Shown here: in pieces, positions 32,262-47,910 of the stretch
How the letters are laid out: each line of letters starts with the position of its first letter
How positions within the stretch are numbered: the stretch's first letter is position 1
Assembly (NCBI GenBank): GCA_017619835.1
Contig: JAFZRN010000027.1
Coordinates: 1-54,818, forward strand
Direction of reading: 5' to 3'
From: Eubacterium sp.
Lineage (GTDB): Bacteria; Bacillota; Clostridia; Lachnospirales; Lachnospiraceae
Length of the DNA: 54,818 bases
The notes under the pieces: generated by a model
Databases searched by the model: none
Told to the model about the DNA's origin: nothing
Seen by the model: only the letters and a program-made list of their open reading frames with translations
Translations under genes and position numbers: made by a program

Positions 32262-32312
32262 AAGGCAATGGCGTCTTAGAGAACATAGTTCTCTGAGGCG
32301 CTTTTTCTTTTT
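32262..32312 (+). promoter_or_regulatory. Nitrogen leader element 1 (antiterminator/terminator switch) before glnN copy 2
   Basis: AAGGC-AATGGC-GTCTT (32262-32277) makes a 5-bp stem with a six-base loop. Its 3' arm and part of its loop are also the left arm of a 14-bp terminator stem (32271-32284 with 32288-32301), followed by TTTTTCTTTTT. The two folds exclude each other. The same design precedes amt and gltB. Loop position 1 is A and position 4 is G, as in ANTAR-protein target loops. Confidence 0.65.
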
Positions 32313-32335
32313 ACAAACGAAAAGGAGAGAAAGCT

Positions 32336-34435
32336 ATGGAAAAACAAAATGTACCTGAACTGTTCGGATCGCTTGTCTTTAATGACAAGGTTATGAGAGC
32401 AAGATTATCGTCTGATGTATATGCATCACTAAGAGAGACTATCGATAAAAACGTAAAGCTGGATGAGAGCGTTGCCGATGCAGTTGCCGAAGAAATGAAG
32501 AACTGGGCAATCGAAAACGGAGCAACACATTTTACTCATTGGTTCCAGCCGCTCACAGGAGTAACAGCAGAGAAGCATGACAGCTTTATCTCCCCTTCAC
32601 CTGACAGCGGAGTACTGATGGAGTTCTCAGGTAAGGAGCTTATAAAGGGCGAGCCTGATGCATCATCCTTCCCATCCGGAGGATTGAGAGCAACATTTGA
32701 GGCAAGAGGCTATACAGCATGGGATCCTACATCCTATGCATTCATCAAGGATCATACACTTTGTATTCCGACAGCCTTCTGTTCATACTCAGGTGAAGCG
32801 CTGGATAAGAAGACACCGCTCCTCAGATCCATGCAGGCGATCAATAAGCAGGCTTTAAGAATATTAAAGCTTTTCGGAACCGAAGCAAATTATGTAAGAA
32901 CAAGCGTTGGTCCGGAGCAGGAGTACTTCCTCGTAGATAAGGAAGTCTTCGATAAGAGGCCTGACCTTATATATACAGGCAGAACACTTTTCGGAGCAAT
33001 GCCTCCGAAGGGTCAGGAAATGGATGATCACTACTTCGGAGTTATCAAGCCGAGAGTAAGCGAGTTCATGGAAGACCTGAATAAAGAGCTCTGGAAGCTG
33101 GGTATCCTGGCTAAGACAGAGCATAACGAAGTGGCACCGGCACAGCATGAGCTGGCTCCGATCTACTCCACAACAAATGTGGCAACAGATTCCAATCAGC
33201 TGATGATGGAGATCATGAAGAAGGTTGCAAGCCGTCATGGTATGGTATGTCTCCTCCATGAGAAGCCATTTGCAGGAGTAAATGGATCAGGTAAGCATAA
33301 TAACTGGTCCATCGGAACAGATACGGGAATCAACCTTCTGTCACCCGGAAAAACACCTTATGAAAATGCACAGTTCCTGCTTTTCCTTTCAGCAGTAATT
33401 CAGGCTGTAGATGATTATCAGGATTTACTTAGACTTTCAGTAGCAACTGCAGGAAATGATCATAGACTTGGGGCAAATGAGGCTCCTCCGGCAATCATTT
33501 CCATCTTCCTCGGTGATGAGCTTTCGGCAATCCTGGATGCAATAAGAAACGACAAGCCATACGAGGGAACAGAGGATGTTGTAATGAAGCTCGGTGTTCA
33601 CTCACTTCCGAGATTCAGCAGAGATACAACAGATCGTAACAGAACATCACCGTTCGCATTTACCGGTAATAAGTTCGAGTTCAGATCACTTGGTTCATCC
33701 AACAGTATCGCATGCTGCAACATCATGCTGAATGCAGCAGTGGCAGAGAGCTTAAAGCAGTATGCTGATGAGCTTGAGAAGGCAGATGACTTTGAGGCAG
33801 CTCTTCATGAACTGATCAAGAGAGTCATCACAGAGCATCAGAGAATCCTCTTCGATGGTAACGGATACGGAGAAGAATGGGTTAAGGAAGCTACAGAAGT
33901 AAGAGGTCTTTCTAATCTTAAGACCACAGCTGATGCAATGCCTCACCTTCTTGATGAGAAGAACAAGAAGATGCTCATTGAACATAAGGTATTTACAGAG
34001 TCAGAGCTTAACTCACGTTGTGAGATCATGCTTGAGAACTATGTAAAGACAGTCAATATCGAGGGACTTACCATGGTAAATATGGTTCGTAAGAATTACC
34101 TTCCGGCTATCGAGAGATATCTCTACAGACTGTCCCAGACAACAGTTCTTATGAAGCAGGTAAGTGAGAAAGTAAAATGCAAGTATGAGGTTTCCACAAT
34201 GGAGAGACTTTCAGAGCTTACCGATTCTATCATGGACAGTGTTACGGATCTTGAGGATGCACTTGCTAAGTTCAAGACACTTGAAAATGTATTCAAGTCA
34301 TCTGCATTTGTAAGAGATGAGCTTCTTCCGAAGATGGATACACTCAGGAAGTATGTTGATGAAGCAGAGATGCTTACATCACAGCGTGACTGGCCATTCC
34401 CGAGCTATGGACAGCTCCTGTTTAGTGTTAACTAA
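32336..34435 (+). CDS. glnN: Glutamine synthetase type III (GSIII), copy 2
   Basis: 699 aa, the same length as copy 1, with substitutions concentrated in the N-terminal 60 residues and near 640-665. All GSIII motifs ([24 protein letters not shown]) are intact, so both copies should be active. It is linked to amt-PII downstream and sits behind the leader switch, which suggests this is the copy induced for ammonia scavenging. AAAGGAGAG is a good RBS. Confidence 0.96.
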
Positions 34436-34457
34436 GAAAAAAAGAATAATAAGTGAA

Positions 34458-34504
34458 AAGGCAAAGGCGTCTTGAGTAAAACTCAGGACGCCTTTTCTAA
34501 ATTT
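34458..34504 (+). promoter_or_regulatory. Nitrogen leader element 2 between glnN copy 2 and amt
   Basis: AAGGC-AAAGGC-GTCTT (34458-34473) is the small stem with hexaloop. The competing terminator pairs 34463-34477 with 34481-34495 (15 bp, one wobble) and is followed by a short T-tract, TTTTCTAAATTT. It lies 22 bases after the glnN stop and would set how much of the glnN transcript reaches amt. Confidence 0.65.
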
Positions 34505-34524
34505 ATAGAAGAGAGGAAATTATT

Positions 34525-36291
34525 ATGACAGAAGAAATTATGAACGCACTCGACGGTGAACTTTTTGCAGTCTGGTTCCTGATAGGAGCAGCATTTGTGT
34601 TCTGGATGCAGGCAGGATTCGCGATGGTAGAGGCAGGCTTTGCAAGAGCAAAGAATGCAGGTAACATCCTGATGAAGAACCTGATGGACTTCTGTATCGG
34701 ATGTTGTGTATTTATACTGATAGGTTTTAGTCTTCTCCTTGGTGAAGATGTGATGGGATTCATCGGAAAGCCCGGATTTGATATATTTACAAGTTATCAG
34801 AATTTTGACTGGTCGAACTTTATATTCAACCTTGTATTCTGTGCAACAACGGCAACTATCGTTTCAGGTGCTATGGCAGAAAGAACAAAGTTCCTCAGTT
34901 ATTGTGTATATTCGGGAGTTATCTCAGCACTTATATATCCAATCGAAGCACACTGGATCTGGGGCGGCGGCTGGCTCGCACAGCTTGGATTCCATGATTT
35001 TGCAGGATCATGTGCAATTCATATGGTAGGTGGTATCGCAGCAGTTGTCGGTGCCAAGATGGTAGGACCTCGTATAGGTAAGTTCGAAAGAGATAAAGAT
35101 GGTAAAGTAACAAAAGTTAACGCATTCCCCGGCCACAACATTGTAGTCGGTGCACTCGGTGTATTCATCCTCTGGCTTGGATGGTACGGATTCAACGGTG
35201 CAGCATGTACTTCAACTGATCAGCTTGCATCAGTATTCGTAACAACAACGATCGCACCTTCAGTAGCAACTGTAGTATGTATGATCTTTACATGGGTTAA
35301 ATATGGTAAGCCCGATGTTTCAATGTGTCTCAATGCTTCCCTCGCAGGTCTTGTAGCTATTACAGCACCTTGTGATGTAACCGATGCATTTGGCGCAATA
35401 GTGATCGGAGCAGTAGCCGGACTCCTTGTAGTATTCGGTGTATGGCTTCTTGATTTCAAGCTTCATATCGACGATCCCGTTGGTGCCGTAGCAGTTCATT
35501 GCATGAACGGTATCTGGGGTACAATTGCAACAGGTCTTTTCGCAACAACTTCAGCACCCGGAAATGACAGTGTAGTAGGTCTTTTCTACGGTGGCGGATT
35601 CCATCAGTTAGGACTTCAGTTACTTGGTTTTGCTACTGTAGCAGCATGGACAGTAGTTTGTATGATAATTGTATTCTCAATAATCAAGGCAATCTTCGGA
35701 CTCAGAGTTTCAGAGGAAGAAGAGCTTGAAGGTCTTGATTCTACAGAGCATGGTCTTGCATCTGCATATTCAGGATTCAGTATCGTTGATATGTCAAGTG
35801 CAATGATGACCGAGAATGAGAACACAAGCCTCGGAGTATCCGAATATGATGAAGCAAGTGAAGCTCAGAAGAAAGCATCTGTTCCTGTAGTAGATGCATC
35901 TAAGGAAATGAGAGAAGCAGGTGTTATCGCTGATACAGGTATCAACAAGGTTGTTATCATTACCAAGCTTTCAAGATATGATAAGATCAAGAAAGCGCTC
36001 AATGCTCTTGGTGTAACAGGTATCACGGTAACTCAGGTAAGTGGCTGCGGTATCCAGAAGGGTGCCGGCGACAAGTACCGTGGAGTTGAGATGGACGTAA
36101 CACTCCTTCCTAAGATCAAACTTGAAGTAGTAGTAAGTAAAATCCCTGTTGACAGCGTGATCGAAACAGCTAAGAAGACTCTTTACACCGGTAAGATCGG
36201 TGATGGTAAGATCTTCGTATATCCTGTAAGTCGTGTTGTTAAGATTAGAACAGGTGAAGAAAACTATGACGCCCTGCAGGACGTTGAATAA
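34525..36291 (+). CDS. amt: Ammonium transporter fused to a PII (GlnK) regulatory domain
   Basis: 588 aa. Residues about 1-405 are the Amt channel, with roughly eleven membrane segments, AGSCAIHMVGGIAAVVGAKM carrying the first pore His and AVHCMNGIWGTIATGL the second. After an acidic linker, residues 473-588 are a complete PII protein: INKVVIITKLSRYDKIKKAL, the T-loop KGAGDKYRGVEM and the closing GKIFVYPV. In most bacteria Amt and GlnK are separate proteins from one operon; here the gate and sensor are one chain. The fused Tyr in YRGVE is a potential modification site. The gene follows glnN copy 2 and leader element 2. Confidence 0.96.
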   Translation: MTEEIMNALDGELFAVWFLIGAAFVFWMQAGFAMVEAGFARAKNAGNILMKNLMDFCIGCCVFILIGFSLLLGEDVMGFIGKPGFDIFTSYQNFDWSNFIFNLVFCATTATIVSGAMAERTKFLSYCVYSGVISALIYPIEAHWIWGGGWLAQLGFHDFAGSCAIHMVGGIAAVVGAKMVGPRIGKFERDKDGKVTKVNAFPGHNIVVGALGVFILWLGWYGFNGAACTSTDQLASVFVTTTIAPSVATVVCMIFTWVKYGKPDVSMCLNASLAGLVAITAPCDVTDAFGAIVIGAVAGLLVVFGVWLLDFKLHIDDPVGAVAVHCMNGIWGTIATGLFATTSAPGNDSVVGLFYGGGFHQLGLQLLGFATVAAWTVVCMIIVFSIIKAIFGLRVSEEEELEGLDSTEHGLASAYSGFSIVDMSSAMMTENENTSLGVSEYDEASEAQKKASVPVVDASKEMREAGVIADTGINKVVIITKLSRYDKIKKALNALGVTGITVTQVSGCGIQKGAGDKYRGVEMDVTLLPKIKLEVVVSKIPVDSVIETAKKTLYTGKIGDGKIFVYPVSRVVKIRTGEENYDALQDVE

Positions 36292-36306
36292 TCCCTTTAA
36301 TCCTGG

Positions 36307-36334
36307 AGTGCCGGCTATGCCGGCACTTCTTTTT
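36307..36334 (+). terminator. Terminator after amt
   Basis: A perfect 9-bp stem AGTGCCGGC / GCCGGCACT with a TAT loop, then TCTTTTTTG. Confidence 0.9.
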
Positions 36335-36381
36335 TGTCTTTTATGGCATTGACCATGTCGTTCGTAAAGAATTCATGTCGT

Positions 36382-36579
36382 TTACACAATTGATATTGAA
36401 ATATGCCTATGAAAGAGTATTGTATTATTGACTAGGTATAATCTGTTGTTTTTGATTTTAAAATATCTTAATAGGAGATTATTGGCGAAAATAAAGTCAT
36501 TGGCAATCGTTTCGCCTGACTGATCAAGAATGTAACAGTCATGTTTGTACTTGGAAACATCAATTCCAACATAGTACAT
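36382..36579 (-). pseudogene. Truncated IS110-family transposase (N-terminal fragment)
   Basis: Read on the minus strand from ATG at 36579, with GGAGG about 8 bases before it. The first 34 codons (MYYVGIDVSKYKHDCYILD, then SGETIANDFIFANN) match the start of IS110 DEDD transposases; the first Asp of the catalytic set is in GIDVSK. From about 36477 on the reading continues into unrelated AT-rich codons and stops at 36382, so about 90 percent of the protein is gone. The in-frame ORF could start at 36612, but the RBS supports 36579. Confidence 0.8.
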
Positions 36580-36780
36580 GGTGTTAAACCTCCTTAAAAA
36601 AGTATTTAGCACTGCTGTTTACCACAGGGAATTCGACTGTGTATTCTCGAAACATAAAACGTCAGGCGTTAACTAACTGATTACCAGTAATAGACGAAAA
36701 GCTGTGGTCTGAGTCTCCTTTCACCAGTCAAAGCTGTATAGCTATAGAAACAAATCCACAGTGCTTTAAGTATTATACAA
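36580..36780 (-). ncRNA. Structured non-coding 5' end of the IS110 remnant, candidate bridge RNA relic
   Basis: On the minus strand a TATAAT (36771-36776) is followed by about 190 untranslated bases before the transposase ATG. The RNA would start with AGCACTG and close with CAGTGCT (7-bp terminal pairing). Internal stems include TTCGA/TCGAA, CACAG/CTGTG and ACTG/CAGT with an exposed loop. In intact IS110 elements this position encodes the bridge RNA that guides the recombinase to target and donor. Loss of the transposase suggests a relic. Assignment is by position and foldability only. Confidence 0.4.
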
Positions 36781-36845
36781 GAACATATAAGTTCTAAATA
36801 TAAACAAAAAATTTAGGAAAGGAAAAGTTAATCCAATCACCCTAA

Positions 36846-37142
36846 ATGGATAATTGGATTATACGAGAAGCTATGAATTTTCTTATCATTCTTTCTGTTA
36901 TACTATTTGTTTATCTTCTTACAGATGCTTTGTTTAGAAAAAAAACAATAAATGGAAAAGACATATCCCAAAAAGATAAAATATTGATGTGGATTACTGT
37001 AATGAATATTCTGATTTCAGTAATATTAAGCTTCGTTGTTATCAGACCATTTAATATATATGTGTTTGTAATCTCTTCGGTATATTGCATTATATATCTT
37101 CTGGCGATATCATTTTATATTATTATAAAGTATGCAAAATGA
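36846..37142 (+). CDS. Small membrane protein of unknown function
   Basis: 98 aa with three hydrophobic segments (about 10-27, 47-66 and 70-94) joined by a Lys-rich loop (KKTINGKDISQKDKI). Not recognised. AT-rich with Ile/Ile-rich segments, unlike the flanking core genes, and adjacent to the IS110 remnant, so possibly acquired. The RBS is poor (AGGAAAGG lies over 20 bases upstream). A terminator follows, which supports a real transcript. Confidence 0.5.
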   Translation: MDNWIIREAMNFLIILSVILFVYLLTDALFRKKTINGKDISQKDKILMWITVMNILISVILSFVVIRPFNIYVFVISSVYCIIYLLAISFYIIIKYAK

Positions 37143-37185
37143 AATAGAATAGTTTATGTATATAATACATTGAAAACTGTAGAGG

Positions 37186-37214
37186 ACCGGTATTGTTTAC
37201 CGGTTTTCTTTTTA
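37186..37214 (+). terminator. Terminator after the 98-aa membrane protein gene
   Basis: ACCGGTA / TACCGGT stem with a 5-base loop, followed by TTTCTTTTT. Confidence 0.85.
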
Positions 37215-37270
37215 ATTATATGATTCACATTTTTATAGAAGAATAATATGTTTAGTGGTAAAATATCATC

Positions 37271-37912
37271 ATGGATTATGAAACAAAAAACAAGATAACA
37301 CTTATTGTAATTGCATTTATTGTTGGAATCTGGATTGGATGGTCGATATATAGCGGAGGGTCGACAAAATCCATACCGGGCGGGACACCGGCACCTATTC
37401 AGACGGAAACAACAGGGGGCACCAGCATGGCTATTGGTGACTACGATGTCGATATCAAATATCTTTATGAGTATGATGTCGATGCACTGGTTATCCATAC
37501 GCATAACTATCCCGGTTTTGATATTGATTCAAAGCTGGTTCCCAAGGATGTTGCTCTTGCATGGGGTTCAGTAGCCCAGTTTAATGAGACTATTGATTTT
37601 CATTGGAGTCAGTCGGGAAGATGGTACAGATGGAAGGCCGATTCATATGATGAGATAGCGCCTGTAGGCGGCGTAGAGGGGGTTAATACTCAGTCCGCCA
37701 ACAATCATCTTATCGCTGCCGATGCCGTTGTAAAAAGCCAGATAAAGAAGATCAGAAGAGGTGACCATGTTCATCTTAAAGGCTATCTTGTAAATGTAGA
37801 TGCCACAAAGTCAAACGGTAATTACTTTTACTGGTATTCAAGTACCTCAAGAGAAGATACCGGCGACGGCGCCTGTGAAGTCTTCTACGTTACCAGTGTC
37901 GATTTCAAATAA
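37271..37912 (+). CDS. Membrane-anchored extracytoplasmic protein of unknown function
   Basis: 213 aa. One N-terminal membrane segment (about 8-26, ITLIVIAFIVGIWIGWSIYS), then a Gly/Pro/Thr linker and a soluble domain outside the cell. Notable conserved-looking stretches are HWSQSGRWYRWKADSYDEIA, NNHLIAADAVVKSQIKKIR and GDHVHLKGYLVNVDA; proteins with such a pattern occur widely but I cannot name a function. No good RBS is visible. The next gene begins 50 bases downstream after a TTTGTCACA / TGTGACAAA inverted repeat. Confidence 0.65.
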   Translation: MDYETKNKITLIVIAFIVGIWIGWSIYSGGSTKSIPGGTPAPIQTETTGGTSMAIGDYDVDIKYLYEYDVDALVIHTHNYPGFDIDSKLVPKDVALAWGSVAQFNETIDFHWSQSGRWYRWKADSYDEIAPVGGVEGVNTQSANNHLIAADAVVKSQIKKIRRGDHVHLKGYLVNVDATKSNGNYFYWYSSTSREDTGDGACEVFYVTSVDFK

Positions 37913-37962
37913 TGTGACAAATAGATCAGATCTGTTTGTCACATTTTAGAAGGGAGAGGGTT

Positions 37963-40134
37963 ATGAAAGATAAGAATTATAATGGGGCAAAATGTCTTAT
38001 AAGCTGTATCATAGTAGCTCTTGTAATTATGTGGGGTTTTTCTTTTGATTCATATGCAAAGGATGAATCAGAACCTGTATTTGTTGATTGTTCACAGTAT
38101 ATCCTGCAGGATGGCGGATTACTTAAAGAACAGACGAAGGCAGTTAAAGGATCATTAAGATCAACCAGGTCAGGAGCTTCTGATCAGGCAGAACTTCGGG
38201 AGCGGATTGTCGATGCAATAGCTAACTTTAAGGGGCAAATTGATCTTTCCGGTCTAACTGTTACGTATGATGAATTTATAAATGAATTTACAGATGTGAT
38301 CAATGCATATCCTATGTTTTTTTACACCAACTCATATAGTTATTCCACATATACCAATGGCAATATGGCATATGTCTGGCCGGTATATAAATACGGCCAA
38401 GATGAGGCGATGATAAAAAAACAGAAGATTGAAGAGCAGATTTCTGTTTTTCTTAATGGTGTTGATGCAAGCTGGTCAGATATGGAGAAAGTTTTATATC
38501 TGAATGATTATCTTGCCGAGACATGTGAGTATGATAAAAACTATAATGATACCTCACTTGCTAATCCAAACAGATTTGATATATATGGTGTTTTAGTTGA
38601 TCATGTTGCAGTTTGTCAGGGCTATGCTATTACGATAAAACAGCTGTGTACGGAAATGGGGATTGATACATATCTGGTTTCCAGTGACGAATTAGGACAT
38701 GCATGGAACATGGTAAAGATAAATGATAAGTATTATATGCTGGATACTACATGGAATGATCCGATGCCTGATAAAATAGGCAAGGCTTATCATAAAAACT
38801 TTATGAAGAGTTATACGTTTTTTAATTCTCCGGGAAGTACTCCGGAAGAAAAGACGCATTATGCAACAGACTATGTGGTTCAGAGTGGTCTTGATCCAAC
38901 ACTTTGCAGTGATACTTCATATGACAGCTATTTCTGGGATGATATATACAATCCGTTTAAGTACGTGAATGAAAAATGGTATAATTCCGATAGCTTTTCT
39001 TCCGGTCAAAATCATATTTTTATTTATTCATGTGATGGAGTTGATTTTGTAAAAGATAGTGCGGCTATTAGTCTTGAATCAATACCGTGGCCGGTTGATA
39101 CTTCGGGATTCAACTATTATCCTGCGTATGCTTGTGTTTCGCTTACTTCATTTGACGGAAAACTGTTATATTCAAATCCAACCAGGATTGTGGAATATGA
39201 TCTTAAAACGGGAAATTCAAAAACCCTGTATGAGCTTTCGGATGGAGAAGCAGCTCATGGGTATATATATGGTATAGCCGTTACTCCGGATTATAAGCTG
39301 AAATATCAGGTATCAACTTCACCGAATCTGATTAATGGTTCGTATGGTACGATTTACGAAAAAAGTCTTAGTGAGTTTTATACTATTTCGACACCTACAC
39401 CCAGACCAACACCAACACCAACGCCTACACCAACGGCAACACCAACGGCAACACCTACAGCGACACCAACGGCAACTGTAACACCTACCACGGATCCCAG
39501 AATTGATCCAACACCGACAGATAAACCGGCCACTCCTGACATAACTCCGACAGAAGAGCCGACATCTGCAGCTACACCGACTAAGGAACCATCTGCTACA
39601 ACTGATCCGACATCATTACCTACAGCAGATCCAACGAATGTTCCGACCTCAAAGCCGACCAATGTTCCGACTTCAAAACCTACAGAGACGCCGTCGTCCA
39701 GAGCAGCAATCGGTACAAAATGGGTTACGTCAGTCGGTATGTATGAAGTGACAGGAAGCACATCTGTAAAGTATACCGCTCCGATAGATAAGAAAGCAGA
39801 TACGGTTAATATACCTGCAACTGTTGTGATAAATGGTGAATTATATCTTGTGACAGAGATTAAATCCGGCTGCTTTAAAGGCTTTAAAAACCTGAAGAGT
39901 GTGATAATCGGACCTAATGTTAAAAAGATCGGTTCAAAGGCATTCTACGGATGTAAAAAACTGAAGACTGTAACTATAAGATCCGCCAAGCTTTCAAAGA
40001 TAGGATCAAAAGCGTTTAAGGGAATACATAAGAAGACCAAGTTCTATCTTCCGAAGAAGAAGTATTCCAAGTATAAAAAAATGCTGAAAAAGGCCGGTGC
40101 GCCAAAGAAAGCAAAGTATAAGAAGAATAAATGA
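37963..40134 (+). CDS. Secreted transglutaminase-like protein with a Lys-rich LRR C-terminal module
   Basis: 723 aa from ATG 37963 (AGGGAGAGG upstream preferred over the ORF start at 37936). Signal peptide 1-32. A transglutaminase-like core has Cys218 in AVCQGYA, His246 in LGHAWN and Asp261 in LDTTWND, the full triad, so it may be a cysteine peptidase or cross-linking enzyme acting on cell wall or protein. A Thr/Pro-rich linker follows at about 470-590. The last 140 residues hold an LRR_5-like domain and a basic tail KKAGAPKKAKYKKNK, shared with the proteins at 40158 and 45082. The protease gene follows, overlapping or within 24 bases. Confidence 0.88.
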   Translation: MKDKNYNGAKCLISCIIVALVIMWGFSFDSYAKDESEPVFVDCSQYILQDGGLLKEQTKAVKGSLRSTRSGASDQAELRERIVDAIANFKGQIDLSGLTVTYDEFINEFTDVINAYPMFFYTNSYSYSTYTNGNMAYVWPVYKYGQDEAMIKKQKIEEQISVFLNGVDASWSDMEKVLYLNDYLAETCEYDKNYNDTSLANPNRFDIYGVLVDHVAVCQGYAITIKQLCTEMGIDTYLVSSDELGHAWNMVKINDKYYMLDTTWNDPMPDKIGKAYHKNFMKSYTFFNSPGSTPEEKTHYATDYVVQSGLDPTLCSDTSYDSYFWDDIYNPFKYVNEKWYNSDSFSSGQNHIFIYSCDGVDFVKDSAAISLESIPWPVDTSGFNYYPAYACVSLTSFDGKLLYSNPTRIVEYDLKTGNSKTLYELSDGEAAHGYIYGIAVTPDYKLKYQVSTSPNLINGSYGTIYEKSLSEFYTISTPTPRPTPTPTPTPTATPTATPTATPTATVTPTTDPRIDPTPTDKPATPDITPTEEPTSAATPTKEPSATTDPTSLPTADPTNVPTSKPTNVPTSKPTETPSSRAAIGTKWVTSVGMYEVTGSTSVKYTAPIDKKADTVNIPATVVINGELYLVTEIKSGCFKGFKNLKSVIIGPNVKKIGSKAFYGCKKLKTVTIRSAKLSKIGSKAFKGIHKKTKFYLPKKKYSKYKKMLKKAGAPKKAKYKKNK
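39391..39490 (+). repeat. Short tandem repeats coding the Thr/Pro linker
   Basis: Repeats of ACACCA, ACGCCT and ACGGCA-type hexamers encode TP/TATP units of the linker. Similar, less regular tracts occur in the protease (about 41688-41890) and the Cys-rich protein (about 46989-47310). Such tracts can expand or contract by slippage in steps of two residues. Confidence 0.7.
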
Positions 40135-40157
40135 TTTCCATTTTATGGAGAAATGAT

Positions 40158-42275
40158 TTGAAAAAGAAACTGTTGATATTATTTTCTTTAATAATATCCT
40201 GCGGGATGATATCATTTCCGGTTTTGGCTGCCGAAGATGGCGGCGAGACAGAAACTATCTATCCCATGGGAGTGATACCTTCCGATATGGTGGTTGGAGA
40301 TCCTGTTAACCAGCCTGTAAGAAGGGCTGTGAGGGGAACTTCGGGTTCGGTCGATCTCCCCGGCTCTTTGGATGGAAGAACGCTGGGATATGTTACTTCC
40401 GTCAAGAATCAGGGAAAGTATGGTGCATGCTGGGCTTTTGCCACAAATGCAGCTCTGGAGTCCAACATGTTAAAGAAAGGACTGGCTGATCCGGGCATTA
40501 ATCTTTCCGAACTTCATATGATCTACTTCATGTATAACTATAACATTGATCCGATGGGAAGGATCATGGATGACCGGAATTATATATCTGCCGATACTCA
40601 TGGGACACCTCTGAATGACTTTAAAGTAATGGCAGATATTGGCGGTAAGGTTGACTGCACGGGATGGCAGATGACTAACGGTGTTATTCCTCTTCAGGAA
40701 GCCGGAGAAGATTATGATGCAAGCTGTGCGGACAGCAGCTTTACAATAGATCAGGCTGAGTGTTTTGCTTCGGATTATGTTGTAAGAAAAATGTATATCT
40801 GCAACTTCAAATATGAAAACATTCAGAATGTAAAGAATCTTGTATATAGATTTGGTGGAGCGGCTGTAGATTTTTACTGCGAGCAGACCACGGGATGCTT
40901 TGGTCAGAGCAACTATTTTAATGTGATCGACGGAACGAAAACCTATTATAATCCCAATGGAATCAGCAAGAAGACTACACACGGTGTTGAGATCGTGGGA
41001 TGGGATGATGATTATCCTAAAGAGAAATTTAAGGTTCAGCCTCCCGGAGACGGAGCATGGCTTATCAAGAACTCCTGGGGATATTCCGATGAAAATGATG
41101 GCTATATCTGGATAAGCTATTATGATGAATGCACTAATGCCAAGGCTGTCGCGTATGATGTGGAAAAGAAGGAGACCAATGAGGTCCTGTATCAGTATGA
41201 CGGGTCGGATCATTTCGGTTATTATCCCTGCCCGTATAAGTATTATCTCGCAATGTACAGTGCTGATGAGTCTGATGAAGGAATGACTGAAGTGATAAAG
41301 AGGGTAGGGGTTGGTTCGGATGCAGATGCATCATTTGTTATTTCGGTCTTGCTCAATCCTGTTATTGAAGATGGCCAGCTTGTTTCATATGAGGAAAAGG
41401 CTGTTACATCCTGTACCAGTCCGTATGCGGGATATGATGTTTTTGATCTGAGCGAAGAGGTTACCGTGAATCATGGTGACACATTTGCGATAATGGTTAC
41501 GGCTGATCCGGATACGATCATATATGCGGCAGGTGATTCTACACCGAAAAAACCCGGAATGGTGGGATGTACCGAGAGTGTTGAAGAAGGGCAGTATTAT
41601 GCAAGTAATTATACTTATGCACTTATCACTCCGACGGGCTCGCCCTGTATCAGAGCCTATTCAATCGCAGGAAGGGATCCTAATGCAACCCCCAGACCTA
41701 CACCTACTTTAAGGCCTACACCGACTCCAAAACCGACGGCAACGCCGACAGTGACTCCAGCGGTCACTCCAAATGTGACAGCTACACCAGAGGAAAATGT
41801 GACACCGACGGTTTCGCCTTCGAGTACGCCGACAAAATGTGGATGTCCGACTTCATTACCGACAGCAATACCGATTATTCCATCCACGGAACCGACTGAG
41901 AATTCATCGACCAGAGCAAAGATTGGTTCGAAATGGGTTACTTCCATCGGAATATATAAGGTTACCGGAGAGACAACAGTGGCCTATGTTGCGCCAAATA
42001 ATAAAAAGGCTAAATCTGTGGTCATTCCTTCGATGGTTGCCATTAATGGCGAGATATATTATGTGACTGAGATTGGTTCGAAGGCATTTTACAAATGTAA
42101 GAATCTAAAGAAGGTCACGATAAAGTCTTCGAAGATAAAGAAGATCGGATCAAAAGCATTCAAGGGTATTTATAAGAAGGCAAAGTTCTATCTTCCCAAA
42201 AAGAAGTTTTCAAAGTATAAAAAGAAGCTTAAGAAAGCCGGTGCGCCGAAAAAAGCAAAGTATAAGAAGAATTAA
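40158..42275 (+). CDS. Secreted papain-family (C1) cysteine protease with a Lys-rich LRR C-terminal module
   Basis: 705 aa from TTG 40158, which has GGAG 7 bases upstream and gives a classic signal peptide (MKKKLLILFSL...). An ATG at 40131 overlapping the previous stop (ATGA) is possible and would add nine residues. Papain motifs: QGKYGACWAFATNAALE with catalytic Cys91, His in THGVEIVGWDDD and Asn in WLIKNSWGYSD. A domain of about 200 residues follows, then a Thr/Pro-rich linker and the shared C-terminal module with one LRR fewer than its neighbours. Ends KKAGAPKKAKYKKN. Probably degrades extracellular protein while attached to the envelope. Confidence 0.88.
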   Translation: MKKKLLILFSLIISCGMISFPVLAAEDGGETETIYPMGVIPSDMVVGDPVNQPVRRAVRGTSGSVDLPGSLDGRTLGYVTSVKNQGKYGACWAFATNAALESNMLKKGLADPGINLSELHMIYFMYNYNIDPMGRIMDDRNYISADTHGTPLNDFKVMADIGGKVDCTGWQMTNGVIPLQEAGEDYDASCADSSFTIDQAECFASDYVVRKMYICNFKYENIQNVKNLVYRFGGAAVDFYCEQTTGCFGQSNYFNVIDGTKTYYNPNGISKKTTHGVEIVGWDDDYPKEKFKVQPPGDGAWLIKNSWGYSDENDGYIWISYYDECTNAKAVAYDVEKKETNEVLYQYDGSDHFGYYPCPYKYYLAMYSADESDEGMTEVIKRVGVGSDADASFVISVLLNPVIEDGQLVSYEEKAVTSCTSPYAGYDVFDLSEEVTVNHGDTFAIMVTADPDTIIYAAGDSTPKKPGMVGCTESVEEGQYYASNYTYALITPTGSPCIRAYSIAGRDPNATPRPTPTLRPTPTPKPTATPTVTPAVTPNVTATPEENVTPTVSPSSTPTKCGCPTSLPTAIPIIPSTEPTENSSTRAKIGSKWVTSIGIYKVTGETTVAYVAPNNKKAKSVVIPSMVAINGEIYYVTEIGSKAFYKCKNLKKVTIKSSKIKKIGSKAFKGIYKKAKFYLPKKKFSKYKKKLKKAGAPKKAKYKKN

Positions 42276-42322
42276 CTTTAAGGATGACAAGTGAGTTATT
42301 TTGAAGGGAGACAGCAGGATTC

Positions 42323-42880
42323 ATGGAAACAGATGAACAGATATATCTCCGCTATGTAAAAGAAGATAATGATGAGGATCTGGAAACCCTGCTGATCCGA
42401 TACAGGGAGGGACTTTTCCTGTTCTTGCTGGGATTCGTGCGTAATGAAGAGGATGCCGAAGATCTGCTGATGGATACATTTGCCAAGCTGGCTGTGGACA
42501 AACCGCATTTTGTGCCTGAACATATCGGCAGCTTTAAAAGCTGGCTTTATACGATAGCACGCAGAAATGCTCTTATGCATATCAGGAAGAGAAAATATGA
42601 GACGGCACCGCTGGATGAGAATATTCCTTCTGATGCTGATATTTCAGATATAATAATTCTTAAGGAAGAGAGAAACCGAAAACTCTATCAGGCTATGTCG
42701 GCGATAAAGCCTGAATATCGGAGAGTTCTCTATCTGCTCTACATGGAGAATCTGTCGCATGAGGAAATATCCAAAGTCATGGGTATGAATAAAAGGCAGA
42801 TATATAACCTTGTAGACCGCGGAAAGAAGTCATTAAAAAATATATTGGAAAGGATGGGGATAACAGATGCGGAGTATTGA
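42323..42880 (+). CDS. ECF-type RNA polymerase sigma factor
   Basis: 185 aa. Sigma region 2 at about 20-90 (YREGLFLFLLGFVRNEEDAEDLL, then SFKSWLYTIARRNAL) and region 4 at about 120-175 (KPEYRRVLYLLYMENLSHEE, then KVMGMNKRQIYNLVDRGKK). No other domains, so it is a minimal ECF sigma. The next gene overlaps it by 14 bases and encodes a two-TM protein in the position of an anti-sigma factor; a PrsW-type protease is two genes further on. Confidence 0.93.
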   Translation: METDEQIYLRYVKEDNDEDLETLLIRYREGLFLFLLGFVRNEEDAEDLLMDTFAKLAVDKPHFVPEHIGSFKSWLYTIARRNALMHIRKRKYETAPLDENIPSDADISDIIILKEERNRKLYQAMSAIKPEYRRVLYLLYMENLSHEEISKVMGMNKRQIYNLVDRGKKSLKNILERMGITDAEY

Positions 42881-43193
42881 AGAACAGATGCAGGATATCA
42901 ATCGACGTAAAGATGTATATAAAACCATGAAGACTCTCACAAAGAAGATTATTGCAGAAGTGATATCTTCCTGTATTTGCGTTGCCATGATGATCACAGT
43001 GATATATTTTCTTCCTGAGATACGGCAGGCATCTGAACAGGCGCCGATCCGTCAATACGGAAGTATGGTTCTGACGGTTTCCACGGTAGGCTATATTTTA
43101 ATTGCAATATTATCCTTCATTCTTGGTGTGGTTTTTACGGTTTTATGTCAGCATTGGAAACAACGTAAGGAAAAGGAGCGTGAGATAGAATGA
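42867..43193 (+). CDS. Two-TM membrane protein, candidate anti-sigma factor (paralogue A)
   Basis: 108 aa, overlapping the sigma gene by 14 bases. A cytoplasmic N-terminal segment (MRSIEEQMQDINRRKDVYKT), TM1 at about 29-50, a short outside loop, TM2 at about 70-93 and a charged tail. It is paralogous to the protein at 44763: both share the MRSxExxM...RKxVY start, GYxxxAxLSFxLGxVxTxL in TM2 and a Lys/Glu end. Not a recognised anti-sigma family; the role is inferred from overlap with the sigma gene and the PrsW neighbour. The stop overlaps the next start (ATGA). Confidence 0.7.
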   Translation: MRSIEEQMQDINRRKDVYKTMKTLTKKIIAEVISSCICVAMMITVIYFLPEIRQASEQAPIRQYGSMVLTVSTVGYILIAILSFILGVVFTVLCQHWKQRKEKEREIE

Positions 43194-43981
43194 ATTCAGA
43201 TATCATGATAATGATTCCTGTATTCTTTCAGATTGCAGTAATAGTCGCTTTGCTTTTTTTATCAGTGAGAATGATCTGGCAGAGCAATAGGTCTCTTGTG
43301 ACAGTGTTCCTTGTTTTTGTCCTTTCGTTGTGGCTGTTTACCGATCTATATTGGGTAATCTATGATTTTATGCGTCCGGACACCAGGATGCCGTTTGCAG
43401 TGAATGAGATAGGAGAGGCGGCAATTTTTCTTCTACTGTCGGCTTTGCTCGGTTCTGCTGTTTATATCCAACCGACGTTTGCCCGAAAGCAGATTGCCGG
43501 AACAACACTATTTTCAATATGCAATGCAGCTCTTTGGATTGCATGGTCAGGAGAGTGGCTGCAAGATATTATGATTGGTGCAACCTTTGCCTATTTCCTG
43601 TGCATGATCGTCTGTGCGCTGAAATGTCAGCAGAGTCTTACGAAATACGAATGGATCGGATTAGGAATCGTATGCTTGTTACTGGTTCTTGCCCAGGCCG
43701 GTACCTTCTTTGTGAGTCTGATGATAAAAACCGTTTTAGATACCGGCTGCTATATTCTTATGATGGGTATATGCATATATTGGATATATAAACTGGTAGC
43801 AGCATGGAAAGATAAGGCTGATCGCAAGACGGTTTTGTGCTTGGTTTTTGCATTACTCGGCTCGGTGATAACATCAAAATATATGAGTGAAGGAGCATTT
43901 TATAATATATTCCTGATAGAGGAAACAATTGCCGTGGTGCTTATATATCTTGTTGTGCGAAGGGTGGTGGTTGAAGAATGA
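43190..43981 (+). CDS. Polytopic membrane protein of unknown function in the sigma operon
   Basis: 263 aa with eight or nine hydrophobic segments and very short loops. Not recognised. ATGA overlaps on both sides tie it translationally to the small two-TM protein and to the PrsW-like protease, suggesting a sensor or partner in the same membrane complex. NEIGEAAIFLLLSALLGSA at 71-89 and FLIEETIAVVLIYLVVRR near the end contain buried acidic residues that could be functional. Confidence 0.7.
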   Translation: MNSDIMIMIPVFFQIAVIVALLFLSVRMIWQSNRSLVTVFLVFVLSLWLFTDLYWVIYDFMRPDTRMPFAVNEIGEAAIFLLLSALLGSAVYIQPTFARKQIAGTTLFSICNAALWIAWSGEWLQDIMIGATFAYFLCMIVCALKCQQSLTKYEWIGLGIVCLLLVLAQAGTFFVSLMIKTVLDTGCYILMMGICIYWIYKLVAAWKDKADRKTVLCLVFALLGSVITSKYMSEGAFYNIFLIEETIAVVLIYLVVRRVVVEE

Positions 43982-44607
43982 TCTATTCGGAGAACATTCT
44001 GGTATGTATTGCTTTGCCGCTGCTGCTGACAATCTTCTTTGTGAAGGGAAACGTTCGCAGGTTTGTACTCAACTTCCTTTTGGGAATGGGAGCCTGCCTG
44101 CTGGGGGCGTATATCAGTGGATTTATAGATGTGGCAATCGGTATGGGTTTAGAGGATACGGCAATCTTTATTTCACCTATATCGGAAGAAACAATGAAGT
44201 TTCTTCCCCTGCTGTTCTATTTTCTGATGTTTGAACCGGATGATGATTGCTTGTTCCATGCCGCAGTAGGTATCGGCGCGGGATTTGCTTCTTATGAAAA
44301 TGTATGCTTTATGGTTTCTTCCGGTGCAGAAAGCCTGGTCTTTCTGCTGATACGAGCGCTGGCGGTAGGAGTTATGCATATAGTCAGTGTATTTGCCATG
44401 ATGCTCGGACTGGTTATAGCCCGACGCTTTAAGGCTATGAGTCTGGCAAGTATACTCGGAGCACTTTCCATTAGTATGCTTTTTCACGGTACATATAACC
44501 TGCTTGTTTCAGAATCGGGAATCACATCAGGCATAGGATATACCCTTCCGCTGACGGTTGCATTGATTTTGATTCTGGTCTATAGCCGTATGCAGATAAC
44601 AGAATAA
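43978..44607 (+). CDS. PrsW-family intramembrane protease
   Basis: 209 aa, about seven membrane segments. The family motifs are present: EExxK at 70-74 (SPISEETMKFLP), EN at 107-108 (GFASYENVCFM), His134 (GVMHIVSV) and HGTYN at 170-174. In Bacillus PrsW makes the first cut in anti-sigma RsiW, and in Clostridioides difficile in RsiT; here the ECF sigma and small membrane proteins in the same operon make the same logic likely. Overlaps the previous gene by 4 bases (ATGA). A hairpin follows. Confidence 0.85.
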   Translation: MIYSENILVCIALPLLLTIFFVKGNVRRFVLNFLLGMGACLLGAYISGFIDVAIGMGLEDTAIFISPISEETMKFLPLLFYFLMFEPDDDCLFHAAVGIGAGFASYENVCFMVSSGAESLVFLLIRALAVGVMHIVSVFAMMLGLVIARRFKAMSLASILGALSISMLFHGTYNLLVSESGITSGIGYTLPLTVALILILVYSRMQITE

Positions 44608-44624
44608 ATTTATAAACAGTTCTT

Positions 44625-44653
44625 ATGGCCATCCCTATTTGAGGGGTGGCCAT
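44625..44653 (+). terminator. Hairpin at the end of the sigma-PrsW operon
   Basis: ATGGCCA.CCC / GGG.TGGCCAT stem, 18 bases after the prsW-like stop, followed only by TTATATT. Likely a terminator, though the T-tract is weak. Confidence 0.65.
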
Positions 44654-44762
44654 TTATATTGGAAATAAAAAATATTATATCTGTGGTGAGTAAAATCAAA
44701 AAAAACTGCATTATATAAAGTAAGAGAGTTAAAACGACGCTTTCTTTTAGGGAGGTGATGTT

Positions 44763-45077
44763 ATGCGAAGCAATGAAGACCTGATGAAGGGGATTCTGAA
44801 AAGAAAAGCAGTTTATCTTGCCCGAAAGCAGGCCCGCAGGCTTACAGGAGCGGCTGCAGGACTGATAACACTGCTTATAATAATGCTTTCCATAGTGCCG
44901 GATGTCACCGGTAATATGACGCAATATACTGTATATGCTATGGGTGCAACAATACTCGGTCCCAAGGCAGGAGGATATGTGATTGTAGCATTACTGTCTT
45001 TTACTTTGGGGATTGTTATGACGCTACTGATTCAAAAGCATAACAGACTGAAAAAACTAATTAAAAAGGAGGACTGA
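44763..45077 (+). CDS. Two-TM membrane protein, candidate anti-sigma factor (paralogue B)
   Basis: 104 aa, near-perfect RBS GGGAGGTGAT. Same layout as paralogue A: MRSNEDLMKGILKRKAVYLA start, TM1 at about 28-46, TM2 at about 72-92 (GYVIVALLSFTLGIVMTLL), basic end. It is the first gene of a two-gene unit with the Cys-rich secreted protein 4 bases downstream. It may be an alternative partner of the same sigma factor, or serve the secreted protein. Confidence 0.7.
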   Translation: MRSNEDLMKGILKRKAVYLARKQARRLTGAAAGLITLLIIMLSIVPDVTGNMTQYTVYAMGATILGPKAGGYVIVALLSFTLGIVMTLLIQKHNRLKKLIKKED

Positions 45078-45081
45078 GTAA

Positions 45082-47751
45082 ATGAAAAAAATTCTTATGT
45101 TTGTATCATTGTTGTGTGTGGTGGCATTTATTTCTATATTGCCGGACAGAACAGTATTCGCAGCAGGAGATCCGCAGCAGGAAGAAGGTATATCCTATTG
45201 GGCGGAGGCTAATTCCAGATATTCCTATGGTCTGAAGAATTATTTTGATTCGGATAAATGTATATTTTCAATCGAAACTATAATGGGATTTAATGGCGAA
45301 TATTTCGTAAATTATCCCGATAAACTCAATCCCTCAGATAAGGGAAAATCCATGTCCGGTGTTTGTGATCAGTTTGATTCCAGCGCGGAAATATATGCCT
45401 GTACGGATGTAAATAGTGGTTTTCGGTTTATTCCCGCAAACGATGACGGTACCAAAATGTATATATGTACTTTGGATGGATACTATGTTAAACGTAAAGG
45501 AAGTGTTGTGAGTCCATCAATCTCCTATACAACTAATCAGAGCAGCGCGACAGCATTTACTGTAGAGGAATCTCTCTTCGGATATAGCTTTTATGAAAAG
45601 AGCGCGCTTGAGTATGCCTACCTGGATGTTACCACCATGGATGATGGCGCTATTCGACTCAAAATGAAACACAAAACCTCTGTAGATAGTCCGGTAATTT
45701 TAAAAGTGTTCCGTAGAGCTTACAGTCCGGATTGTTATATCAAGATGCCGATTGTAGATAATTATCATGACCCCGGTATTAATGTGATCGGCCCATATAA
45801 TGAATATACTTCGAACATGAATAGAGCCATTACAATACCCTGTTACTATTCGAATCCTTATCCGAATGATCATTTTCTTCCTGATGATGTAGAGGTTATT
45901 CCCGTGATGGCGGATGCCGAAGTGGAGTATATTCATTATCTTTCTGGGTATCTGGAATTTGCAGTCAAAATGCCGGATGCACCAAGTCTCTATCAACACC
46001 AGACATATCGTTTCCCCATAAAGATACAAGATCACCATTACGATGATTCCCTATGGTATACGAATAAACCGGCAACCTGTCAATCAACGGGTACTAAGTA
46101 TCATCCGTGCACCAACTATGTAAACAAAAACAATGCCTACTTTGACAAGGAAAAGTGGATTCTGAGTGATAATCCCTGTTGCTGTTATGAAACCCTGGAA
46201 ACAGTTCCGAAGACCGATCACGTATTAGGCGATGACGCAACTATTTTCCAGGCAAGCTGTGAATGCAGTGGTGGAAAAATCGGAAATTGTACCAAGTGTG
46301 GAAAAAGGGTAGTCGTTTACGATCCCCAAAGACCGGCTTTGGGGCATACATACGTATTCTATCCTGCCAAAGAGCCGAATTGCGGAGAAGAGGGATGGAA
46401 TGCTCACTATCGCTGTGGTCGTAACGGCTGTAATAAAGCATTTGACACCAATAAGAATCCCATTTCCCAGATTCCGACGAGACCAATCTGCGGAAGTCAT
46501 GTATTGGAAACCGTACCGGCCAAACAGCAGACCTGTAAAGAGATGGGATGGTCAGAATACCAGCATTGTACCGTCTGCAACAAAATATTTGTAAATGGAG
46601 TAGAAAGACCGGAGGGTATTCCGTATATCGAAAAGAATAGTTGGCATGAATGGGAAGAAACCGGCAGGGTTCCGGCAAATGATGACTGCACCTTGGCTAC
46701 AGTATCATATGTATGTCCTGTCTGCGAAAAGGAAAAAACAGAAACAATCTCATGCAATGCTGTGTCGTTTGAAACAGCTGTAAGTCCGGACATAGGCGGC
46801 ACTGTATCAGGTGCAGGAAAATATGTGGAAAAAGCCTCTGTTACCGTAAATGCTGTATCGGCTGAGGACTACAGTTTTATAAATTGGACAGATAAAGATG
46901 GAAATGTCATTAGTACGGAAGAGTCATATACCTTTACCATTACAGAAGATTACAGTTTAACTGCGAATTTTGAAAGGAAAGTAATAGTAACACCAACACC
47001 GACTCCGACGCCAACTCCGACGCCAACTGAAACTGTTACACCAGCGCCGACAGAGGTTACTACTCCGACAATAACTCCAAGTGAGACACCTGTTGTGACT
47101 CCGACATCAACTCCAAGTGAGACACCAGTTGTGACTCCGACAGAAACTCCGGGAATAACTCCTACGTCGACACCGGAAGAGATTCCGACGACATCACCGA
47201 CTGAGGATGTAACTCCGACAGCAATACCGACTGAGGCAGCCTCACCGGATGTTTCACCCTCGGCAGAACCGACAAGCGATATAAAACCGACATCGGAGCC
47301 GACGGAAGAACCCGGAAAGCCTGCAGAGGTTGGAACAATATGGGAATCTTCAGATGGTAAGTATGAAGTGACGGGAGATAATACGGTTGCCTTTACAGCG
47401 CCGATCAAGAAGAACGTTAAGGTAGTCAATATACCGGCAACGCTCGTTATAAATGGTAAATTATATCTCGTAACCGAGATTAAGCCGGAAGCCTTCAAGA
47501 GTTCCAAGAAGCTGACGAAGGTTATAATCGGTCCGAACGTAAAGAAGATCGGCAAAAAAGCCTTCTATAAATGTAAGAGTCTGAAGAAGATTATAATCAG
47601 ATCTTCAAAGCTTAAAAAGATCGGTTCAAAAGCTTTTAAGGGAATTAACAAGAAAGCAAAGTTCTATCTTCCGAAGAAGAAGTATTCGAAGTATAGGAAG
47701 ATGATCAAAAAAGCCGGCGCACCGAAAAAGGCAAAGTATAAGAAAAACTGA
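45082..47751 (+). CDS. Large secreted Cys-rich protein with InlB-type repeat and Lys-rich LRR C-terminal module
   Basis: 889 aa, RBS AAGGAGG. Signal peptide 1-28. An unrecognised N-terminal region of about 300 residues carries YYVKRKGSVVSPSIS and SALEYAYLDVTT, possibly a beta-rich binding domain. Residues about 370-560 hold serial Cys modules with CxxC pairs (NCTKCGK, HCTVCNK, VCPVCEK), likely metal-binding or disulfide knots. About 575-635 is a divergent InlB-type B repeat (FINWTDKDGNVISTEESYTF). A Thr/Pro linker and the shared module (GTIWESSDGKYEVTG ... KKAGAPKKAKYKKN) complete it. Surface adhesion or binding is inferred. Co-transcribed with paralogue B. Confidence 0.82.
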   Translation: MKKILMFVSLLCVVAFISILPDRTVFAAGDPQQEEGISYWAEANSRYSYGLKNYFDSDKCIFSIETIMGFNGEYFVNYPDKLNPSDKGKSMSGVCDQFDSSAEIYACTDVNSGFRFIPANDDGTKMYICTLDGYYVKRKGSVVSPSISYTTNQSSATAFTVEESLFGYSFYEKSALEYAYLDVTTMDDGAIRLKMKHKTSVDSPVILKVFRRAYSPDCYIKMPIVDNYHDPGINVIGPYNEYTSNMNRAITIPCYYSNPYPNDHFLPDDVEVIPVMADAEVEYIHYLSGYLEFAVKMPDAPSLYQHQTYRFPIKIQDHHYDDSLWYTNKPATCQSTGTKYHPCTNYVNKNNAYFDKEKWILSDNPCCCYETLETVPKTDHVLGDDATIFQASCECSGGKIGNCTKCGKRVVVYDPQRPALGHTYVFYPAKEPNCGEEGWNAHYRCGRNGCNKAFDTNKNPISQIPTRPICGSHVLETVPAKQQTCKEMGWSEYQHCTVCNKIFVNGVERPEGIPYIEKNSWHEWEETGRVPANDDCTLATVSYVCPVCEKEKTETISCNAVSFETAVSPDIGGTVSGAGKYVEKASVTVNAVSAEDYSFINWTDKDGNVISTEESYTFTITEDYSLTANFERKVIVTPTPTPTPTPTPTETVTPAPTEVTTPTITPSETPVVTPTSTPSETPVVTPTETPGITPTSTPEEIPTTSPTEDVTPTAIPTEAASPDVSPSAEPTSDIKPTSEPTEEPGKPAEVGTIWESSDGKYEVTGDNTVAFTAPIKKNVKVVNIPATLVINGKLYLVTEIKPEAFKSSKKLTKVIIGPNVKKIGKKAFYKCKSLKKIIIRSSKLKKIGSKAFKGINKKAKFYLPKKKYSKYRKMIKKAGAPKKAKYKKN

Positions 47752-47789
47752 AAATTCAGGTAAAAAACAAGAAAAACATCACTTTATAA

Positions 47790-47803
47790 AATTTTGCAAA
47801 ATT
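47790..47803 (+). promoter_or_regulatory. Perfect palindrome upstream of the gltB promoter
   Basis: AATTTTGCAAAATT, 14 bp, ends 5 bases before the -35. Possible operator for a dimeric regulator; AT-rich, so chance is not excluded. Confidence 0.3.
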
Positions 47804-47808
47804 AGTGC

Positions 47809-47836
47809 TTGACTTTTAAAAATAAAGTTATATACT
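47809..47836 (+). promoter_or_regulatory. Promoter of gltB-gltD
   Basis: TTGACT (47809-47814), 16 bases, TATACT (47831-47836). Start of transcription about 47843, twenty bases before leader element 3. Confidence 0.7.
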
Positions 47837-47862
47837 AATAATAGTTTATAAATAACGATTAA

Positions 47863-47910
47863 GAAGCAAAGGCGCTTCGAGTATGTACTCGGAGTGCCTT
47901 TTTCGTTTTT
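47863..47910 (+). promoter_or_regulatory. Nitrogen leader element 3 before gltB
   Basis: GAAGC-AAAGGC-GCTTC (47863-47878) forms the small stem with the same hexaloop as the amt leader but a different, compensating stem. The competing terminator pairs 47868-47883 with 47886-47901 (realistic loop TATGTA) and is followed by TTTTTCGTTTTT. Confidence 0.7.

Follow-up and report, generated by a model that had tools for sequence, protein, structure and literature searches.

Can an ANTAR-type antiterminator protein make do with one RNA hexaloop, rather than the pair of hexaloops seen with its textbook targets? This is the question raised by a 54,818-nucleotide (nt) stretch of DNA from Eubacterium sp., a rumen-type bacterium (Lachnospiraceae; assembly GCA_017619835.1, contig JAFZRN010000027.1, forward strand), here described as the window, in which three leaders, i.e., those of glnN copy 2, amt-PII and gltB, were said by an earlier note to be of a single antiterminator/terminator design. 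Our answer, to which we assign a probability of roughly 0.78, is that these leaders attenuate transcription within a glutamine regulon that spans the genome, one that is read by a single ANTAR protein and that employs just one hexaloop per terminator. The interpretation of the leaders as ANTAR antiterminators is supported, as judged from sequence, by the lines of evidence which follow.

The common design was reproduced at all three leaders (Table 1). Each has a 5-base-pair (bp) stem, a six-base loop that starts with AA and that has A as its first and G as its fourth base (A1/G4), and a 3' stem arm which is at the same time the left arm of a terminator. When the hexaloop is forced, then the 3' remainder folds at -6.9, -2.6 or -3.8 kcal/mol, versus about -24 for the terminators, and as only a weak 3' hairpin is left, hexaloop and terminator should be mutually exclusive. 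In an ungapped scan of both strands of the window, i.e., one allowing no bulges, 15 terminators were called, four of them with a 5-bp hexaloop in overlapping register, and the three of these that have A1/G4 are exactly the leaders in question; the rate of an A1/G4 hexaloop in that register at random positions is 0.0069, such that three or more in 15 has a P of about 1.4e-4. The earlier statement that glnN copy 1 is without the element holds, with neither terminator nor A1/G4 hexaloop found in its leader (24380-24466). The -10 of glnN copy 2 precedes its hexaloop stem by 12 nt, which is the commonest spacing in the family. For amt-PII, the hexaloop and terminator are there as claimed, though a promoter of its own was not found, and since, in addition, the element lies between the genes glnN copy 2 and amt, it probably is an internal attenuator.

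That the gltB stem differs from the others and still pairs had been taken as compensatory evidence, a view that homologues bear out. A covariance model of the terminator structure, R1, which leaves the hexaloop pairs outside of the model, was run on 76 loci of same-genus relatives and gave 129 matches; with 14 antisense or overlapping rows removed, 115 were left, and of those 102 were unique. All five hexaloop pairs are kept in 98 of these 102, versus 43.7 (standard deviation, sd, 4.0; maximum 60; n = 2000) upon shuffling of arms, a count for which the stem was not modelled in the search and relatedness is ignored in the statistics. A1/G4, as seen in all three window copies, is seen also in 102 of the 102, which partly is built in, the seeds themselves having had A1/G4. 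Stem types include AAAGC/GCTTT, GAAGC/GCTTC, AAGAC/GTCTT, AAGGC/GTCTT, AGAAC/GTTCT and GAAAC/GTTTC, among others, with leaders of one and the same gene carrying differing types (in locus rows some of which overlap, being of the same genomes).

A pattern scan of named genomes gave at least 119 stretches, mostly from Lachnospiraceae and other Clostridia, with the cultured carriers Sellimonas caecigallum and Merdimonas faecis among them. Pairing is full in 74 of 81 elements from the 80 stretches listed with titles and in 39 of 40 from the other 39, mispairs being permitted by the pattern. For the counts below, 103 genus elements and 66 scan elements were combined into a set of 169, with three of 106 genus elements left out (out of register or unconvincing) along with 15 scan loci (11 that are non-clostridial by title, Megamonas, L150, L164 and L179). 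Every fixed position of the loop AANGGC is kept in at least 166 of the 169 copies, copies which in part were chosen for it. In a survey of the class, a strict pattern was matched by 16 of 293 genomes and its reversed control by 0 of 293. A looser class-wide pattern, tried for counting, was matched by 108 of 293 genomes and was rejected in favor of the strict one because its reversed control matched nearly as often (about 80 of 293, by eye).

The earlier note saw no clear second A1/G4 stem-loop upstream, and none is present near the window copies. Two explanations then offer themselves, i.e., a second loop that is hidden or a mechanism that differs. A promoter can be recognized within 90 nt of 127 of the 169 elements, versus 14 of 169 after shuffling (the starts being predicted ones), and in 76 of the 127 the distance from the -10 to the start of the stem is at most 15 nt, 12 nt being the most frequent value. 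If the earliest plausible start is put 5 nt past the -10, and if the smallest published upstream loop (P1) plus linker takes 14 nt, then 78 of the 127 have fewer than 14 nt before the stem and hence no room for a P1. Among the 49 that have room, P1-like matches are at chance, that is, 2 versus 3.6 (sd 1.8) in shuffles, as too are P1s with 4-bp stems within 30 nt across all 169 elements (9 versus 8.4, sd 2.5). As a positive control, the same 4-bp search finds a P1 in 7 of 11 non-clostridial scan loci, including those of Herbaspirillum, Duganella, Geobacter, Geomobilimonas and two Omnitrophota, and finds none in L147, L177, L194 and L196; a search allowing 3-bp P1 stems, run on 10 loci chosen for comparison, is positive in 9, with one weak case. 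A second hexaloop 2-25 nt upstream, as seen with dual-hexaloop ANTAR targets, is therefore not a feature of these elements by our searches, and predicted promoters along with chance-level P1 counts argue for a mechanism that differs from the textbook one and against the hidden second loop. Single hexaloops are found before glnA in other clostridial families too (L256, L260, L276, L303 and L304), with a terminator called by the ungapped scan in one of these and, by eye, an inverted repeat before a T-rich stretch in the others.

The amt leaders of relatives can be more elaborate. Two hexaloop-terminator units stand in series, 53-103 nt apart, in 9 of 25, and in five more of the 25 there is a second hexaloop to which the scan assigned no terminator. 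In L026 and L030 (by eye also L020, L031 and L036) that second hexaloop is of a GAGC-AATGGC-GTTT type lacking a U-tract, and by eye its 3' part complements sequence closer to the gene; this perhaps is a non-terminator form of the switch. In L084, L094, L107 and L121, a conserved palindrome-like stretch around CGAACTCGCGAGCGGA lies between second hexaloop and ribosome site.

What, then, would read the hexaloop? Two further copies in the same genome, found by R1 and both recovered by the pattern search (C40:7707-7763 and C31:56778-56831), bring the number reached by these two means to five, which is a minimum; a narrower pattern matched only the amt copy. The 12 own-genome R1 matches with E up to 10 include these five, three that are antisense to copies, and L008, L010 and L011, which by eye look like plain terminators without hexaloop. 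The C31 copy heads glmS. The C40 copy heads a tight operon, pyrG-purF-carA-carB-GS'-ANTAR, with gaps of 20, -4, 2, 22 and 10 nt, in which GS' is a gene resembling those for glutamine synthetase (GS), whose start we place at a TTG, an ATG following 24 nt later. A genome search for an ANTAR response regulator, as proposed in the earlier note, found exactly one, the product of the gene which here lies directly 3' of GS'. Two outcomes that the note had named as refuting its reading, no covariation in homologues and no ANTAR protein in the genome, are hence both contradicted. As that gene is part of an operon headed by the element, the regulator probably controls itself. As an aside, a perfect 11-bp inverted repeat, GTGACAAACAG...CTGTTTGTCAC, without U-tract, is found at L003 3156-3184, between carB and the GS-like gene.

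By Pfam the protein consists of a receiver (REC) and an ANTAR domain, both over cut-off, the former barely so (30.4 versus 30.2 bits). Its structural model (predicted local distance difference test, pLDDT, of 92) has as its best PDB match EutV bound to RNA (6ww6_B; template modelling, TM, score of 0.79). Of 61 genomes of the genus, this one among them, 58 have one ANTAR gene; the other three are 70-73% complete and were negative in a relaxed search also. Across the class survey, ANTAR is found in 15 of 16 strict-pattern genomes versus 156 of 293 overall (Fisher P 4.7e-4, phylogeny uncorrected). From the list of RNA-contacting EutV residues given in PMC8934654 (what is attributed here to papers cited by PMC number holds for the excerpts of them drawn upon), K149, E160 and M172 are invariant in 50 group members and K143 is K or R in 49 of 50. 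The phosphorylation site is Asp in none of these 50, and Asn in 39; the alignment held 54 rows before four fragments or outsiders were removed, and one of those four, L050, does have the Asp. Among ANTAR proteins from outside of the group, of which 12 of 14 were recovered, Asp is retained in 10 of 12. Families f54 and f55 are among these 10, and as their glnA leaders are single-loop, the one-loop design and the loss of Asp are not coupled. With a receiver that lacks the phosphorylated Asp, control probably is via a partner protein, for which the product of the adjacent GS' is the candidate.

In loci of ANTAR proteins resembling the one studied here (tblastn, above 60 bits; some rows overlap, being of the same genomes), 65 of 66 rows have a GS-like gene directly 5' of that for ANTAR, and the one miss has only 144 nt of sequence. 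The GS' of this genome itself scores 260.6 bits against a cut-off of 429. The roles of the flap Glu, of the arginines of the NRS and RIP motifs, and of the other active-site residues of GS we take as given. By comparison with B. subtilis GS, the flap Glu is lost in 33 of 33 non-redundant genus-level GS' (T in 32, S in one), as are both the NRS and RIP arginines, such that the residues by which an active type I GS would be recognized are missing from GS'. Seven other active-site positions are unchanged in all 33, with an eighth, the first Glu of PEPEF, being E in 23. This combination of selective residue loss and strict retention elsewhere suggests a pseudoenzyme that is kept for binding. Eleven more distant GS-like proteins, at 48-55% identity, have a K or an R in place of the flap Glu, four of them being without three other positions as well, and some distant ANTAR-linked GS-like proteins (L056, L057, L060 and L068) keep the flap Glu.

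The genes that follow the element are consistent in theme. Of the 66 elements retained from the listed scan loci, all but L199 gave a downstream open reading frame, and the resulting 65 were read singly, with PurF/GlmS cross-matches counted once. Of these, 49 encode enzymes of glutamine or ammonia, namely type III GS (21), GS-I (1), Amt (8), GltB (4), GltD (1), AsnB (4), PurF (3), GlmS (1), PyrG (3), CarA (2) and GuaA (1). The promoters hold an observation of a different kind. The gltB/pyrG class, i.e., that of the window gltB and of relatives, has a conserved cTTGACTTTT-AaaATAAAGT-TATACT whose spacer of 16 nt contains the inverted repeat ACTTT...AAAGT, as found in 25 of 39 class-2 promoters versus 3 of 42 class-1 promoters; the repeat is possibly an operator for a second regulator, one acting at the level of DNA.

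The mechanism we propose is as follows. By default, the nascent leader would fold into the terminator and transcription would stop ahead of the gene. Free ANTAR protein, however, would bind the A1/G4 hairpin as soon as this hairpin exits the polymerase, and the bound hexaloop would then keep the 3' arm from the terminator, leaving a weak apical hairpin and allowing read-through. The regulon would include glnN copy 2, amt-PII (internally), gltBD, glmS and pyrG-purF-carA-carB-GS'-ANTAR, that is, glutamine synthesis, ammonium uptake, glutamate synthase (GOGAT), a number of amidotransferases that use glutamine and, judging from its place in the operon, the regulator too. Supported by sequence comparison are the mutually exclusive structures, the covariation, the gene set, the single loop, the presence and linkage of ANTAR, the pseudo-receiver and the degenerate GS. 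Binding of hexaloop RNA by the ANTAR protein is, we think, highly probable, and sufficiency of one loop is probable, if somewhat less so. Antitermination would be the outcome and low glutamine may be the inducer. The role of GS' as sensor is tentative, falling a little short of an even chance. More tentative still is the whole taken jointly, that is, one-loop ANTAR antitermination in Clostridia in which next to nothing is transcribed before the antiterminator, with a catalytically dead GS that senses glutamine and holds or releases a phosphorylation-independent ANTAR protein, the result being an autoregulated glutamine regulon operating at the level of RNA.

A number of observations weigh against this proposal. 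One loop may not suffice, as EutV needs both in vivo (PMC3369931, PMC8934654), and the transcription starts on which the argument for one loop leans are predicted only. One stem pair is broken in 4 of the 102 unique elements. EutV contact R142 is lost, R168 and R177 are not conserved, and Y164 is H in 49 of 50. No strict-pattern match was found in 141 of the 156 ANTAR-bearing survey genomes, as indeed is expected of a narrow pattern, and two genomes, G342 and G135 (99% and 97% complete), have elements and no ANTAR match over cut-off; G342 is the strict-pattern exception, with the G135 elements coming from a looser listing (G135:C57, G342:C8), and in both an assembly gap, recent loss or another reader is possible. 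Lastly, certain downstream genes are off theme, these being a PPDK_N family (5 of 65), RelA/SpoT, an RraA-like gene, ornithine cyclodeaminase and other singletons. As to the PPDK_N-match family, its elements are of a GAAAC-AAAGGC-GTTTC type (L151, L158, L171, L192, L207 and, by eye, L312), with GAGGC-AAAGGC-GTTTC as the L192 variant, and the family, of which one member was checked singly, has no obvious glutamine role.

Other readings differ in how much of this they keep. The leaders might be classical dual-hexaloop targets with a P1 that is present and goes unrecognized, as ANTAR antitermination targets are dual in those parts of the literature drawn upon here, as the amt leader L263 of one clostridial family is dual, and as in the gltB leaders L139 and L168 an A1/G4 hexaloop with a 5-bp stem is found 29 nt upstream. 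Lack of room in most promoter-bearing elements and P1 counts that match shuffles, from a search which does recover P1 in non-clostridial loci, nevertheless make this unlikely. It would be more improbable still that these are ordinary constitutive terminators or leader hairpins, having no regulator and a hexaloop that is a chance overlap. The terminators are indeed strong, and an A-rich 5' side could partly lengthen the terminator stem, but the 5' arm covaries with the 3' arm in spite of having no complete partner within the terminator, the loop is near-invariant even if partly selected for, the strict pattern has matches where its reversed control has none, and terminators of that sort directly 5' of biosynthetic genes would silence them. 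Ribosome-mediated attenuation was also considered and rejected, with just 12 nt from -10 to hexaloop in glnN copy 2 and with 26 nt lacking ATG, GTG and TTG (by eye) in gltB.

The reader of the hexaloop could instead be a different RNA-binding protein or a metabolite (i.e., a mini-riboswitch), the association with ANTAR then being indirect. The two genomes with elements and no detected ANTAR gene fit with this, as does partial retention of EutV contacts; a six-base A1/G4 loop overlapping a terminator is, however, an ANTAR signature, the one ANTAR gene per genome is sited within the regulon, and 16 nt is small for a metabolite pocket. Rfam moreover has no match at the leaders in a gathering-threshold scan of the whole window, and an E-value scan limited to 32100-34600, with the gltB leader outside, found no regulatory RNA, glutamine riboswitch included. 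This alternative we consider about as unlikely as the unrecognized P1. Considerably more serious, and only modestly short of even odds, is a reading which retains the RNA mechanism but has the signal arrive via the Amt-fused PII or a ligand of the pseudo-receiver, the GS-like protein being an enzyme with some other substrate. The amt gene is in fact fused to PII, and GS-fold enzymes with other substrates exist, such as the gamma-glutamylpolyamine synthetases. Loss of two arginines and the flap Glu with seven ligand-site residues fixed is a better fit to a sensor, however, and AmiC and NasS provide precedents as repurposed ligand-binding partners of ANTAR proteins (PMC3795266).

How does the proposed one-loop system compare with those already described? 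With the EutV/eut leaders of Enterococcus faecalis it shares the short stem, the six-base A1/G4 loop, the overlap with the terminator left arm, and a REC-ANTAR protein. It differs in having one loop instead of P1 plus P2, a loop which in most glnN and amt leaders is near the predicted 5' end of the transcript, and in having a receiver without the phosphorylated Asp. In the eut system dual loops are required (PMC3369931), and a 2022 EutV-RNA structure paper describes a single hexaloop as the minimal binding site, yet both as obligatory for antitermination, and asks for work on single-loop sites (PMC8934654). As that paper holds both loops to be needed, the one-loop family would be a new variant as well as a direct test. 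The ANTAR-target searches of PMC3369931 (section 10) and PMC8164766 required, in the portions used here, two loops and hence would have missed it.

The type of regulator, by contrast, is already known, given that NitR of C. saccharobutylicum is an ANTAR protein which induces GS/GOGAT genes by antitermination under nitrogen limitation (as reviewed in PMC6316151) and that in C. thermocellum an ANTAR gene is clustered with GOGAT genes (PMC4676874). The ANTAR protein studied here is, like NitR, one of nitrogen assimilation, and the two probably belong to the same regulator lineage. A GS gene adjoins here and presumably there too, as we take nitR to adjoin glnA in C. saccharobutylicum. What sets the present system apart from NitR is that its linked GS has degenerated and that elements are found before glmS, pyrG, purF, carA, asnB and guaA as well. 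In AmiC-AmiR and NasS-NasT it is a repurposed ligand-binding protein, not a kinase, that controls the ANTAR partner (PMC3795266), which resembles what is proposed here, except that the candidate partner is GS-derived rather than a periplasmic binding protein and the target is one-looped. By analogy only, B. subtilis GS also serves as a nitrogen sensor for a regulator, in binding TnrA (PMC6316151); that GS, however, is active and TnrA binds DNA, whereas here catalytic residues are lost and the regulator would bind RNA. Neither the family of one-loop targets nor the wider glutamine regulon nor a degenerate GS partner was found in the open-access literature, a scope outside of which most subscription journals fall.

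Table 1. Positions within the window of the leaders, their predicted promoters and the associated genes.
Feature	Position	Strand	Details
Predicted sigma-70-type promoter, glnN copy 2	32221..32249	+	-35 TTGACA 32221-32226, -10 TAGTAT 32244-32249
Candidate hexaloop antiterminator, glnN copy 2	32262..32277	+	AAGGC-AATGGC-GTCTT
Intrinsic terminator overlapping glnN copy 2 hexaloop	32267..32305	+	fold -24.3 kcal/mol
glnN copy 2, type III glutamine synthetase, 699 aa	32336..34435	+	GSIII_N, Gln-synt_C
Candidate hexaloop antiterminator, amt-PII, in glnN-amt gap	34458..34473	+	AAGGC-AAAGGC-GTCTT
Intrinsic terminator overlapping amt-PII hexaloop	34460..34498	+	fold -24.1 kcal/mol
Ammonium transporter with fused PII domain, 588 aa	34525..36291	+	
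Predicted gltB promoter	47809..47836	+	-35 TTGACT 47809-47814, -10 TATACT 47831-47836; ACTTT...AAAGT inverted repeat in spacer
Candidate hexaloop antiterminator, gltB	47863..47878	+	GAAGC-AAAGGC-GCTTC
Intrinsic terminator overlapping gltB hexaloop	47868..47901	+	fold -24.4 kcal/mol
gltB, glutamate synthase large subunit	47926..52497	+	
gltD, glutamate synthase small subunit	52511..54040	+	13 nt 3' of gltB
glnN copy 1, without element (negative comparison)	24464..26563	+	

Elsewhere in the window, the sole match from the Rfam gathering scan is an S10-Clostridia ribosomal protein leader, at 5980-6061 with 50.1 bits.

A conserved clostridial regulon built upon one loop makes the sufficiency of a single loop directly testable. 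If the proposal is true, then it suggests how Lachnospiraceae of gut and rumen control their nitrogen assimilation, and it would provide a case of a metabolic enzyme repurposed as the partner of a regulator, in parallel to AmiC and NasS.

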